Source: Cryomorphaceae bacterium | GTDB taxonomy: Bacteria; Bacteroidota; Bacteroidia; Flavobacteriales; Schleiferiaceae | DNA: 64,000 nt | Assembly: GCA_017858515.1 (NCBI GenBank) | Contig: JAFMBM010000003.1 | Span: forward strand, 1-64,000 | Direction of reading: 5' to 3' | In this document: one piece after another, positions 11,912 through 16,397 of the stretch | How the letters are laid out: each line of letters opens with the position of its first letter | Position numbering within the stretch: position 1 is the first letter of the stretch | Notes under the pieces: model-generated | Database searches by the model: none | What the model was told of the DNA's origin: nothing | The model's input: the letters and a program-made list of their open reading frames with translations, nothing else | Made by a program: the position numbers and the translations under genes

Positions 11912-13645
11912 ATGGCAGAAACAAAGAATTCCAAGCTAACACCCTTGAGGCGTTTCCTAATGCTCCTCAAGCCGGACAAAAAAGATCTCATTTATATATA
12001 TGTATTCGCTGTCTTAAATGGAGTAGTAAATCTTTCGTTGCCTTTGGGTGTTCAAGCCATCATTGGACTCATTATAGTTGGCTCAGTAAGCACTTCTTGG
12101 AGCGTTTTAGTGGGAATCGTTTTGGTGGGAATTGCGCTTACAGGTGTTCTTCAAATTTTACAACTAAGCGTGCTCGAATCAATGCAACAAAGAATGTTTG
12201 CCCGAGCTGCATTTGATATGGCCTATCGTATACCACGCTTTAAACAAGAAGAGATTCGAAAGTTCGATCCTACTGAATTGATCAATCGCTTTTTCGACGT
12301 TATCACTGTTCAAAAAGGACTTCCCAAAATTTTATTAGACTTCTCATCGAGTGTTTTAAATATTCTTTTCGGACTGATACTCTTAAGTTTTTACCACCCA
12401 TTTTTTGTCTTCTTTGGCATTGTAATGCTCATTATTCTGCTTGCGATCTTTTACTTCACCATTCCAAGAGGAATGAAGACCAGTATTAAGGAATCGAGTC
12501 ATAAGTACCGAGCCGTCTATTGGTTGGAAGAATTAGCTCGTTCTATGACAACCTTTAAAATGGCTGGAAAAACAAACCTTCCATTGAGGAAAATCGACGA
12601 AATAACTCAAGATTACCTGCAAGCACGTAAGAAGCACTTTAGAGTTCTAATATGGCATTACATTCATACTATAAGTTTTAAAACAATAATAACGGGAGGC
12701 CTTCTTATTTTGGGTGGATTATTGGTTATGCAGCGCGAAATAAATATTGGCCAATTTGTAGCTGGAGAAATTATTATCATTCTTATCATCAACTCGGTAG
12801 AAAAGGTAATTCTATCTCTAGAGACCATGTACGACCTGTTTACCGGTTTGGAGAAATTAGGTCAGGTGATGGATATAGAATTAGAACAAGGCAATCAGAA
12901 CAAATCCTTTGAACTCAATCCTTGCTCATGCGTAGAAATTGAAGTTTCCAATTTAAGACTCATCCTTCCGCCTCAAACCAAACCAATTCTCGATGGTTTA
13001 AACTTGAAAATAGAGAAACAAAGCAGCGTTTGCATTTCTGGAGCAAGTGGCACTGGCAAAACAGCACTATTGCACGTTCTTGGCAGTATTTACAACAATT
13101 TTGAAGGAGTGCTTGCCTTTGACGGAATGCCTTTGGGAAGTATAGATATTGAAAGTTTGCGCTATTCTATAGGAGATAATTTCAATCAAGAATCGCTCTT
13201 CACAGCGAGTTTGGAGGAGAATATTACCCTCGGACGTGAGGGAATTGAGAGTGAATACCTGCAGCAAATAATTAAGATTTCTGGACTTACAGAATTTGTA
13301 ATGCAACTGCCCTCTGGGTTAAAAACCATCATGGATCCGACCAATCGAAATCTTCCTCAAAGCATAGAAAGAAGGGTTTTCTTAGCACGCAGTTTCGTGC
13401 ACAAACCAAGTTTGCTTCTATTAGACGAGCTCTCTGAGTTAAGTGAGCTTCCTGATTACAACAACCTCATTAGCTATGTTACTTCAGCGGAACGAAATTG
13501 GACCCTTGTTCTTGTATCCAATGATCCCGATGTTGCAAAACTCTGCGACAAAGTGGTGTTTTTAGAAGCAGGCCACGTAGCACATGAAGGCCATTTTAAT
13601 GAACTGAAGGATATACCTTCTGTTCGTAAAATTTATGAACTATAA
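11912..13645 (+). CDS. ABC exporter (fused TM-NBD) with degenerate ATPase motifs
   Basis: The 577-residue protein has an N-terminal six-helix ABC exporter domain (to about residue 310) and a C-terminal nucleotide-binding domain. Walker A GASGTGKT (near 376), a Q-loop-like NQESLFTASLEENI and Walker B LLLLDE are intact. The ABC signature, normally LSGGQ, reads LPQSIERR (near 480), and the switch histidine is replaced by Asn (LVSNDPD, near 537). It has no C39 peptidase domain. HlyD and TolC genes follow at once, which marks it as the inner-membrane part of a tripartite exporter. No partner ABC gene is present, so how it hydrolyses ATP is unclear. The substrate is unknown. Confidence 0.85.
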   Translation: MAETKNSKLTPLRRFLMLLKPDKKDLIYIYVFAVLNGVVNLSLPLGVQAIIGLIIVGSVSTSWSVLVGIVLVGIALTGVLQILQLSVLESMQQRMFARAAFDMAYRIPRFKQEEIRKFDPTELINRFFDVITVQKGLPKILLDFSSSVLNILFGLILLSFYHPFFVFFGIVMLIILLAIFYFTIPRGMKTSIKESSHKYRAVYWLEELARSMTTFKMAGKTNLPLRKIDEITQDYLQARKKHFRVLIWHYIHTISFKTIITGGLLILGGLLVMQREINIGQFVAGEIIIILIINSVEKVILSLETMYDLFTGLEKLGQVMDIELEQGNQNKSFELNPCSCVEIEVSNLRLILPPQTKPILDGLNLKIEKQSSVCISGASGTGKTALLHVLGSIYNNFEGVLAFDGMPLGSIDIESLRYSIGDNFNQESLFTASLEENITLGREGIESEYLQQIIKISGLTEFVMQLPSGLKTIMDPTNRNLPQSIERRVFLARSFVHKPSLLLLDELSELSELPDYNNLISYVTSAERNWTLVLVSNDPDVAKLCDKVVFLEAGHVAHEGHFNELKDIPSVRKIYEL

Positions 13646-13659
13646 TCCCTGAGAAGAAA

Positions 13660-14997
13660 ATGCTGAATATTTCAGAAAATCGAATTGGGGATCGTATTGA
13701 TCAGAAAAACTATCCCTCACTAAATCAATCCAAAACCAACAAACAAATCCGAATTTTTACCTATTGGATTTACACAGTTGTTGTGCTATTTATTGTGGTT
13801 TTGTTTCTTCCATGGACTCAGGTAGTAAGTGGAAAAGGAAAGGTAACTGCTTTATTTCCAAATCAAAGACCGCAAACTATTCAAAGTCCTATTCCAGGGC
13901 GTATTTCAAATTGGCTGGTCAATGAAGGAGATACAGTGGAGAAGGGAGAGATCATGTTAAAAGTGACCGAGATAAAGGATGAATACTTTGATCCTAACAT
14001 TATTCAACGGTTAAATGAGGAACTCAAGGCCAAACAGAATTCAGTCTTGGCGTATCGATCTAAGGCAGAAGCGCTTCATAGGCAAATTGAGTACTTACGA
14101 GAAAATTTGAGAGTTAAACTGATTCAAAACACTCAAAAGATACAGGCCGACAGCAATGCTTTTGCTGCTTCTGAAATTCAAAAACAGCTTGCCACTATCC
14201 AGTATCAAAGGGCCGATACGCTTTTAAGTGAAGGAGTTATAAGCAAATTCGAATGGGAAAAGCGCAAGCAATACATGCAAGAAGTCTTAGCTAAAAATAT
14301 TGAATCGAGAAACAAGTATCGGAACACTTTAACCGATATTCAAGCTTTAAAGGCAGAGTATCAAGAGAAAATATCGAAAGCAGAATCAGATCAATTCTCT
14401 GCAGAAAGTTCTGCCCTTGATTCCGAGGCTTCTGTGGCCAAACTGCAAGTGAAATTAAATAATGTTACTATTCGTCAATCTTATTATGAATTGCGGGCAC
14501 CGCAAAAAGGTCTAGTTACCCGAATTCTAAAAACGGGAATTGGTGAGAATATTAAAGAGGGAGAATCTATCATCGAAATTATGCCCTTAGACTATCAATT
14601 GGCAGTAGAGATATTCATCCGTCCTGTTGACTTACCCCTTATTCAAAAAGGACAACATGCGCGAATCGAATTCGACGGTTGGCCAGCTATTGTTTTTAGC
14701 GGATGGCCTAATACTTCTTTTGGAACGTTTGGTGCGGAAGTTTTCGCTGTAGACAACGTATTAGATGAATCAGGCCGCTACCGAATTTTACTCAGAAAAG
14801 ATGAAATAGATCTTGAATGGCCAGAACCTCTGCGCTTTGGGGCCGGAGCAAATGGGATGCTCCTTCTCAAGGATGTTCCAGTATGGTATGAAATATGGCG
14901 TCAAATTAATGGCTTCCCACCCGAATTTTACACTGGTCAAAATTCGAATAAAGAAGAGGTAAAGAAGTCGAAACCCAAAGTAGGCTACTCGAAATGA
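13660..14997 (+). CDS. HlyD-family periplasmic adaptor (membrane fusion protein)
   Basis: The 445-residue protein has one N-terminal membrane helix (about 33-53), a split biotinyl-lipoyl domain (NWLVNEGDTVEKGEIMLKV and KGLVTRILKTGIGENIKEGESI), a long helical hairpin between them (about 115-270) and a C-terminal beta-barrel region. It bridges the ABC protein to the TolC-type channel. It begins 14 bases after the ABC stop and overlaps the outer-membrane gene by 4 bases (ATGA), so the three genes form one operon. The long hairpin is typical of type I secretion adaptors and also of some lipid or peptide exporters. Confidence 0.9.
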   Translation: MLNISENRIGDRIDQKNYPSLNQSKTNKQIRIFTYWIYTVVVLFIVVLFLPWTQVVSGKGKVTALFPNQRPQTIQSPIPGRISNWLVNEGDTVEKGEIMLKVTEIKDEYFDPNIIQRLNEELKAKQNSVLAYRSKAEALHRQIEYLRENLRVKLIQNTQKIQADSNAFAASEIQKQLATIQYQRADTLLSEGVISKFEWEKRKQYMQEVLAKNIESRNKYRNTLTDIQALKAEYQEKISKAESDQFSAESSALDSEASVAKLQVKLNNVTIRQSYYELRAPQKGLVTRILKTGIGENIKEGESIIEIMPLDYQLAVEIFIRPVDLPLIQKGQHARIEFDGWPAIVFSGWPNTSFGTFGAEVFAVDNVLDESGRYRILLRKDEIDLEWPEPLRFGAGANGMLLLKDVPVWYEIWRQINGFPPEFYTGQNSNKEEVKKSKPKVGYSK

Positions 14998-16397
14998 GGC
15001 AGTTTATTCTCTTTTTAACATTGATTTTCAGCCTCTTCGGAAGTGCTCAATACGATAGTTCCCTATTTAAGCCCGAACTTGTTTTTGCGCTTCTGCCAAA
15101 TCATCCTGTTGCTCGAATTGCAGACTTACTAAATATGGAAAGTCAAATGATTCGCTTACAGGCCAAAGGTCTATTTGATCCAAAATTTGAGTTTGATCAA
15201 AATGCGAAAGAGTTTGATAGCAAAGACTATTATCAACTTCAAAAAGCTGGTCTTTCTGTAGCTACTTGGCCAGGGATAGACTTCAAGGCAGCCTATAAAA
15301 ACAGCGATGGAGAATTTCTAAACCCTCAAGCAACCTTGCCAGAAAGCGGTATGATTGAAATGGGTGCAGATGCAAATCTCTTGAGAGGATTATTGTTTGA
15401 TTCTCGCAGAGCAGCCCTTCAGGAAGCAAAGGCCTTCGCCCTTGCCAATGACGCTGAAAGAAGAATGGCTTTGAACAAACTTGTGTCAGAAGCCATGAGT
15501 TCTTATTGGAATTGGGCTGCTTCCTACAGTAAATTCAAATTAGTAGATCGATCTCTCCAAAATGCATTGGAAAGATACGAAGGGATTCGTTCGAGTTATT
15601 TCGCGGGTAGTGTTGCAGCTATTGATACCGTTGAGGCCTTAACTCTAGTTCAGAATAGGCGAATGGACAAGGAGAAAATGAATTACGAGCTGACTAAAAA
15701 TCGTTTGGTATTGAGTACTTATTTATGGGGCGCAGACAGTTTGCCACTAAGGCTTTCGCCCACTGCCTTTCCTATTGAGATCACACGCTGGGAACAGAGC
15801 TTTTTTGTGCGTGACTCCTTAGAATCCATTATTCGAAATTTGGATCAATTCCAACCTGAACTACTTAGTATTTCCGCCGATTTGGTTCGTTTGGATGCAG
15901 GAAGGAAGCTGGCTTTAAACAACTTATTGCCAGAGGCAAAAGCCTCCTACCGATGGTTAAATCCTGGAGATCAATTTTTTAATTCGGAAGAATTCGGTCC
16001 TACAAACAATTATACTCTTGGACTCTCAGTTAGCGTGCCTTTGTTTCTTCGAAAAGAAAGAGCTTATTTAAAACTGAATCAACTAAAGCGAACCGAACAA
16101 AATCTGAAGTTAATGGATAAGCGCAATACGCTTATTAACAAGCTTGGAGCACATTATGAAGGACTCTTGTTATACCGTAGAAATAGCCTCACGGCAGAAC
16201 AAAACTTCAGCAATTACACCCAACTCTTTGAAGTGGAGACTAGAAAATTTAAAATGGGTGAGAGTACTCTATTCTTAATCAATTCTCGCGAAAGTTCACA
16301 GCTAAACTCTGGAATGAAGTGGATTGAGCAACTAGAATCCTTTGAAATTCAAAAACTCAAACTCTTAGAAGAAGCCGGACTGCTTCTTTCAGAGTAA
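14994..16397 (+). CDS. TolC-family outer-membrane efflux channel
   Basis: The 467-residue protein starts with a signal peptide (RQFILFLTLIFSLFGSA|Q). Two TolC-like repeats follow, rich in long helices, with strand segments such as GLSVATWPGIDFKAAYK and NNYTLGLSVSVPLFLRKERAYL; the latter is the usual pattern in the second TolC half. Such proteins form trimeric tunnels across the outer membrane. The position at the end of the ABC-HlyD operon fixes the role. No terminator is obvious in the 16 bases before the converging gene. Confidence 0.88.
   Translation: MRQFILFLTLIFSLFGSAQYDSSLFKPELVFALLPNHPVARIADLLNMESQMIRLQAKGLFDPKFEFDQNAKEFDSKDYYQLQKAGLSVATWPGIDFKAAYKNSDGEFLNPQATLPESGMIEMGADANLLRGLLFDSRRAALQEAKAFALANDAERRMALNKLVSEAMSSYWNWAASYSKFKLVDRSLQNALERYEGIRSSYFAGSVAAIDTVEALTLVQNRRMDKEKMNYELTKNRLVLSTYLWGADSLPLRLSPTAFPIEITRWEQSFFVRDSLESIIRNLDQFQPELLSISADLVRLDAGRKLALNNLLPEAKASYRWLNPGDQFFNSEEFGPTNNYTLGLSVSVPLFLRKERAYLKLNQLKRTEQNLKLMDKRNTLINKLGAHYEGLLLYRRNSLTAEQNFSNYTQLFEVETRKFKMGESTLFLINSRESSQLNSGMKWIEQLESFEIQKLKLLEEAGLLLSE

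Follow-up and report, generated by a model that had tools for sequence, protein, structure and literature searches.

It is the ATPase that defines an ABC transporter. In tripartite pumps of the MFS type, such as EmrAB-TolC, the inner-membrane protein is ion driven and works together with TolC and an adaptor of the HlyD type. SbmA has an ABC-type membrane domain without an ATPase; protons drive it via a glutamate ladder, and its proposed ancestor is a full-length ABC transporter (PMC13316013). In known heterodimeric exporters, a degenerate ATP site is combined with a competent one, and in ABCC1 one site tolerates the exchange of the H-loop histidine for Asn or Gln (PMC7756269). In the window analysed here, i.e., the whole stretch of 64,000 nucleotides, an operon of the HlyB-HlyD-TolC kind appears, with a probability of roughly 0.6, to encode a tripartite HlyB-type exporter that no longer depends on ATP hydrolysis and is probably driven by an ion gradient, in convergence with SbmA.

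The operon lies on the forward strand. Its first gene (11912..13645, +) is an open reading frame for an ABC-exporter-derived inner-membrane protein of 577 residues with a degenerate ATPase, in which Pfam recognises ABC_membrane (PF00664) and ABC_tran (PF00005). It is followed, after 14 bases, by the gene of an HlyD-type periplasmic adaptor (13660..14997, +; 445 residues), which shares an ATGA overlap with that of a TolC-type (TolC/OEP) outer-membrane factor (14994..16397, +; 467 residues); the tight packing described in an earlier note on this DNA is confirmed by the reading frames. In the AlphaFold2 model of the ABC protein (overall pLDDT 75), the ATPase fold is predicted confidently (block means mostly 80-92) and the membrane domain moderately so, and the best Foldseek matches of the model are PCAT1, TM287/288, and HlyB. 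The architecture is that of a type IV ABC exporter, i.e., a six-helix membrane domain with an ABC ATPase fold. The gene set is that of type I secretion (ABC, HlyD, and TolC together), but the NCBIfam type I models score far below their cut-off, and the ABC protein, judged by its motifs, is not the ATPase-competent HlyB of a type I secretion system. The operon is conserved: HlyD lies within 100 bp downstream in 150 of the 162 relatives with room for it, and two of the remaining twelve are HlyD fusions. The flippase-like and YhhQ genes upstream, proposed as possible members of the same operon, are indeed neighbours in the window's own genus, but not elsewhere. Outside that genus, the upstream neighbour seen most commonly is a TetR-family gene, which directly precedes the ABC gene in 61 of 138 relatives with room and hints at a small-molecule signal. 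Six Phaeodactylibacter-like loci (L012-L015, L017, and L020) carry a very large gene (about 1815-1850 codons) upstream of TetR-like and ABC genes, together with a gene for approx. 177 residues (an ECF sigma factor in L012), and these are candidates for a regulon or substrate link. Degenerate ABC genes also occur alone, with no recognisable HlyD or TolC adjoining (L058, L069, L072-L077, L079, and L082), and their adaptors are perhaps encoded elsewhere. In Riemerella anatipestifer (L262), the operon is found on a 101,897-bp plasmid (NZ_CP081938.1) amid the housekeeping genes fabG, rsmI, murB, and alanine racemase, and this replicon looks like a piece of chromosome or one that has been wrongly labelled.

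The ABC protein is divided into a transmembrane domain (residues 1-332; 11912..12907, +), which in some relatives persists by itself or in fusion with HlyD, and a degenerate nucleotide-binding domain (residues 343-577; 12938..13642, +). As had been reported, Walker A (GASGTGKT, residues 377-384; 13040..13063, +) and Walker B (LLLLDE, residues 501-506; 13412..13429, +) are intact, such that K383, D505, and E506 are retained, whereas LPQSI (residues 481-485; 13352..13366, +) stands where LSGGQ is expected and N537 (13520..13522, +) occupies the position of the switch histidine. The closest relative (L009), which is 93% identical and nearly saturated at synonymous sites, shows the same motif state, and a sequencing error, which the earlier note had allowed for, is therefore excluded. 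A scan of genomes yielded 80 related loci, none of which has a normal signature where the motif is readable; the histidine is kept in only two, and the Walker B glutamate is also missing in most. When the window-type set was enlarged with further genomes to 156 non-redundant proteins, no member had all four motifs together: Walker A is retained in 138, the Walker B glutamate in 15, an S-x-G signature in five, and the histidine in two. The window protein, in which Walker B survives although most relatives have lost it, is among the least degraded of its family. In five genomes (G101, G108, G113, G146, and G302), the match continues across a stop codon close to the C-terminus, which looks like erosion of the degenerate ATPase domain from this end.

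The alternative of local decay, also raised at the outset, has been rejected since the relatives with LSTGQ and the histidine all belong to a distant clade, made up of other families, and the entire window-type clade is degenerate. This deep clade is separate and well supported and comprises 17 sequences (families f36, f38, f41, f42, f49, and f61 and relatives), seven of which have all four motifs, i.e., LSTGQ- or ISFGM-like signatures, DE, and His. HlyD and TolC are neighbours at most of its loci as well. The same operon thus also exists with a competent-looking ABC protein, and the window protein is part of a degraded branch. The rooting on distant canonical exporters is unsure owing to long branches.

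In 18 genomes, the ATPase domain is physically absent. In 11 of them (families f16, f22, and f23, including G481, a single contig of 7.0 Mb), a lone membrane domain of 332-339 residues is followed by HlyD and TolC. Its stop codon overlaps the HlyD start in nine, which leaves no space for an ATPase remnant; the other two have gaps of 34 and 66 bases. The remaining seven genomes, all from a sister genus, encode a fusion of membrane domain and HlyD (732-761 residues), with a short linker where the ATPase domain was and with the membrane anchor of HlyD retained. One further candidate (G765/L251), initially counted as ATPase-less, proved to be truncated by a contig end and was dropped. The maximum-likelihood tree sets the two groups apart, a single origin being sufficient in none of 200 bootstrap trees; the AU test rejects one ATPase-less clade with moderate strength (p = 0.026). 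The nearest full-length sisters of both losses already have a broken Walker A (GSGRT[KS] in g8 and GSGKHT in G431), which suggests a stepwise path whereby the hydrolysis motifs were lost first, then the P-loop, and finally the domain itself. A search for a detached family-like ATPase domain in the 18 genomes found none; the best matches, located in frames of the size of ordinary exporters, did not exceed 101 bits, compared with 258 bits for a true family homologue.

Related ABC genes are also borne by plasmids of Sphingomonadales (Novosphingobium, Sphingobium, Croceicoccus, and Sphingomonas), and thus by a second phylum, with HlyD and TolC directly downstream of most of them. In these proteins Walker A, Walker B, and the signature are all destroyed, Lys383 being replaced by Glu or Asp in eight of eight, and some are annotated merely as 'ABC transporter transmembrane domain-containing protein'. 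Two loci (L265 on pTK1 and L270 in Sphingopyxis 113P3) have an IS3-family transposase directly after the ABC gene instead of HlyD and TolC, and the ABC frame of L270 is short (475 residues).

Since nearly all members have a defective motor and at least two lineages have discarded it altogether, the pump apparently operates with no ATP hydrolysis. The membrane domain has retained a set of charges, of which E89, E286, E297, K298, and D308, as well as K135, R126, and D129, are invariant or nearly so. E89 in TM2 (12176..12178, +) is Glu in 156/156 window-type and 15/15 ATPase-less proteins and Asp or Glu in 17/17 of the deep clade. The position of E286 in TM6 (12767..12769, +) is acidic in 156/156 window-type, 15/15 ATPase-less, 16/17 deep-clade, and 8/8 sphingomonad proteins, and acids at 286, 297, and 308 are jointly present in 155/156 window-type and 15/15 ATPase-less members. 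E286 and the further TM6 acids E297, E304, and D308 (12800..12835, +) are located on one face of the predicted helix (0, 20, 0, and 40 degrees), and acids at 286 and 297 are absent from the canonical exporters compared. This arrangement, together with the SbmA precedent, favours export driven by an ion gradient. Nonetheless, the acids were there before the ATPase was lost, being present already in the competent-looking deep clade, and they may therefore bind a cationic substrate rather than couple energy; moreover, sphingomonad relatives have E297 in 0/8 and E89 in 1/8. For these reasons, independence from ATP, which comparison of the sequences supports well, is better supported than proton coupling, which is hypothesised by analogy.

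Under the favoured model, the inner-membrane part would descend from an HlyB-type ABC exporter that abandoned ATP hydrolysis, and its transmembrane domain, presumably as a homodimer, would perform transport together with HlyD and TolC. The ATPase domain would be a relic. That of the window protein, with Walker A and B intact, may still be able to bind ATP and might thus modulate or stabilise the transporter; that of the sphingomonads would be unable to do so, and at least two lineages have deleted it. Energy would most likely come from an ion gradient, and the analogy with SbmA makes E89, E286, E297, and D308 candidate sites for protons or cations. A broader and more tentative reading, which we hold at somewhat less than even odds, is that this family turned a primary, ATP-driven HlyB-type exporter into one driven by an ion gradient, independently of SbmA and in the outward direction through TolC, and that the intermediates are still alive as competent, degenerate, Walker-A-less, and ATPase-deleted proteins and as fusions of membrane domain and adaptor.

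Selection has acted differently on the two domains. Mean identity among window-type proteins is 53% in the membrane domain vs. 34% in the ATPase domain, the reverse of the pattern in ordinary exporter paralogues (17% vs. 44%). At matched divergence of the membrane domain, the ATPase domain is better conserved in the deep clade than in window-type proteins (ratio 1.12 vs. 0.67 at 30-40%), and ATPase-domain columns conserved above 85% number 47 and 15, respectively. The membrane domain has a dN/dS of about 0.01-0.08, and the window-type ATPase domain one of about 0.04-0.19, which indicates purifying selection, with synonymous sites saturated for many pairs. Where retained, the ATPase domain is therefore not junk, and together with the persistence of Walker A this makes it probable, judging from the sequences, that nucleotide binding matters in window-type proteins. 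These observations also suit another explanation, namely that the protein has become a passive or gated conduit for facilitated diffusion, in a CFTR-like conversion, with the retained ATPase domain gating it by ATP binding alone: Walker A persists in the great majority of window-type members while the hydrolysis motifs are gone, and energy coupling is itself hypothetical. However, other lineages have deleted the ATPase domain or lost Walker A, which shows that a nucleotide gate is dispensable, and ungated passage through both membranes would be costly, so we regard a conduit as unlikely. The suggestions of very slow hydrolysis or of a nucleotide-gated scaffold made in the earlier note are likewise possible where Walker A is kept, including in the window protein, but cannot explain the members without Walker A or without an ATPase domain.

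Less probable still is the idea that the protein is the degenerate half of a heterodimer, or part of a system with a shared ATPase, such that a competent ABC protein encoded elsewhere hydrolyses the ATP. Degenerate and competent halves are known to pair (PMC7756269), each genome has other exporters, and a general ATPase common to other transporters is compatible with the sequence data. However, the ABC protein is, as claimed, the only one in its HlyD-TolC operon, and a search of related genomes for a second ABC gene beside HlyD and TolC revealed no adjacent competent partner as a rule. Two neighbouring genes were considered and rejected: that of L037, at a distance of 5 kb, encodes an ordinary exporter of the C39 type, and the ABC_tran gene of L211 lies about 1.3 kb beyond TolC, apparently in another operon. 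The family is present in 49 of 60 genomes of the window's family, in 101 of 393 phylum genomes (query, the window protein; E up to 1e-35), and in 208 of 396 class genomes (query, the membrane domain), with exactly one copy in each of the 49; G306, with two full-length members on different contigs, is an exception to the single copy. The other full-length ABC exporters of the window genome have canonical motifs, are located elsewhere, and are just 19-23% identical to the ABC protein of the operon. Any heterodimer would still have both sites without the contributions of this half, and a homodimer would, as predicted from the motifs, have two defective sites. The ATPase-less relatives have nothing to pair, and in them the coupling positions are relaxed: E207, R210, and F215 of intracellular loop 2 (residues 207-215, the coupling-helix region; 12530..12556, +) and E325 of the linker are conserved in the presence of an ATPase domain and relaxed in its absence, at the place where the membrane domain of an ABC exporter should contact it. 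A partner elsewhere is thus disfavoured, given one copy per genome and deletion in two lineages without a detached replacement. Slow but real hydrolysis by an atypical mechanism in members with Walker A and B, with the deletions as side branches of other function, fits K383, D505, and E506 of the window protein and the tolerance of Asn or Gln in ABCC1 (PMC7756269), but it is quite improbable given that 141 of 156 relatives lack the catalytic glutamate, none has all motifs, and the ATPase-less members retain the same HlyD and TolC.

Many relatives, e.g., L045 (7554-8000) and most of the Cytophagales loci L030-L088, have an additional N-terminal domain of approx. 150 residues, which has no Pfam match and is predicted to run helix-helix-helix-sheet. 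Profile comparison of this extension with C39 gave no significant match, and the predicted fold of L045 aligns with HlyB over 736 columns, N-terminal domain included, which points to an HlyB-type ancestor whose C39-like domain has disappeared from the window branch. A family found in about half of the sampled class genomes appears to have shed its ATPase within a type-I-like export system. How primary transporters turn into secondary ones has been debated mainly on the basis of SbmA vs. YddA; natural intermediates make this question directly testable. Many genes labelled 'ABC transporter ATP-binding protein' probably encode proteins that do not use ATP in the way this label implies. No prior description of this family, or of an ATPase-less tripartite HlyB-type system, was found in the open-access literature; the component parts are of known kinds, and it is their combination, a tripartite HlyB-type system minus the ATPase, that was not found described.

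Each of the known systems shares some of these parts. With HlyB-HlyD-TolC (8dck, 7sgr), the window system has in common the operon make-up, the fold, and the HlyD and TolC families; it differs in that ATPase motifs have been lost or the domain deleted and in that the window protein has no C39-like N-terminal domain, and none of the adjoining genes was recognised as encoding a substrate. TM287/288 and BmrCD, in which one site is degenerate, share the fold and the loss of signature, Glu, and His, but here there is no partner gene, and a homodimer would be degenerate at both of its sites. The SbmA/BacA (SLiPT) peptide importers resemble it in their ABC-exporter-type membrane domain, intramembrane glutamates, and proposed full-length ABC ancestry, and their absence of an ATPase is matched by the relatives in 18 genomes, though not by the window protein. 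The latter, in contrast, matches PF00664 and no SbmA/BacA family model, belongs to a tripartite exporter with HlyD and TolC, and retains the coupling-loop region, and its coupling to protons is hypothetical. Under the favoured model, the system would work like EmrAB-TolC, with an inner-membrane part of ABC rather than MFS descent.
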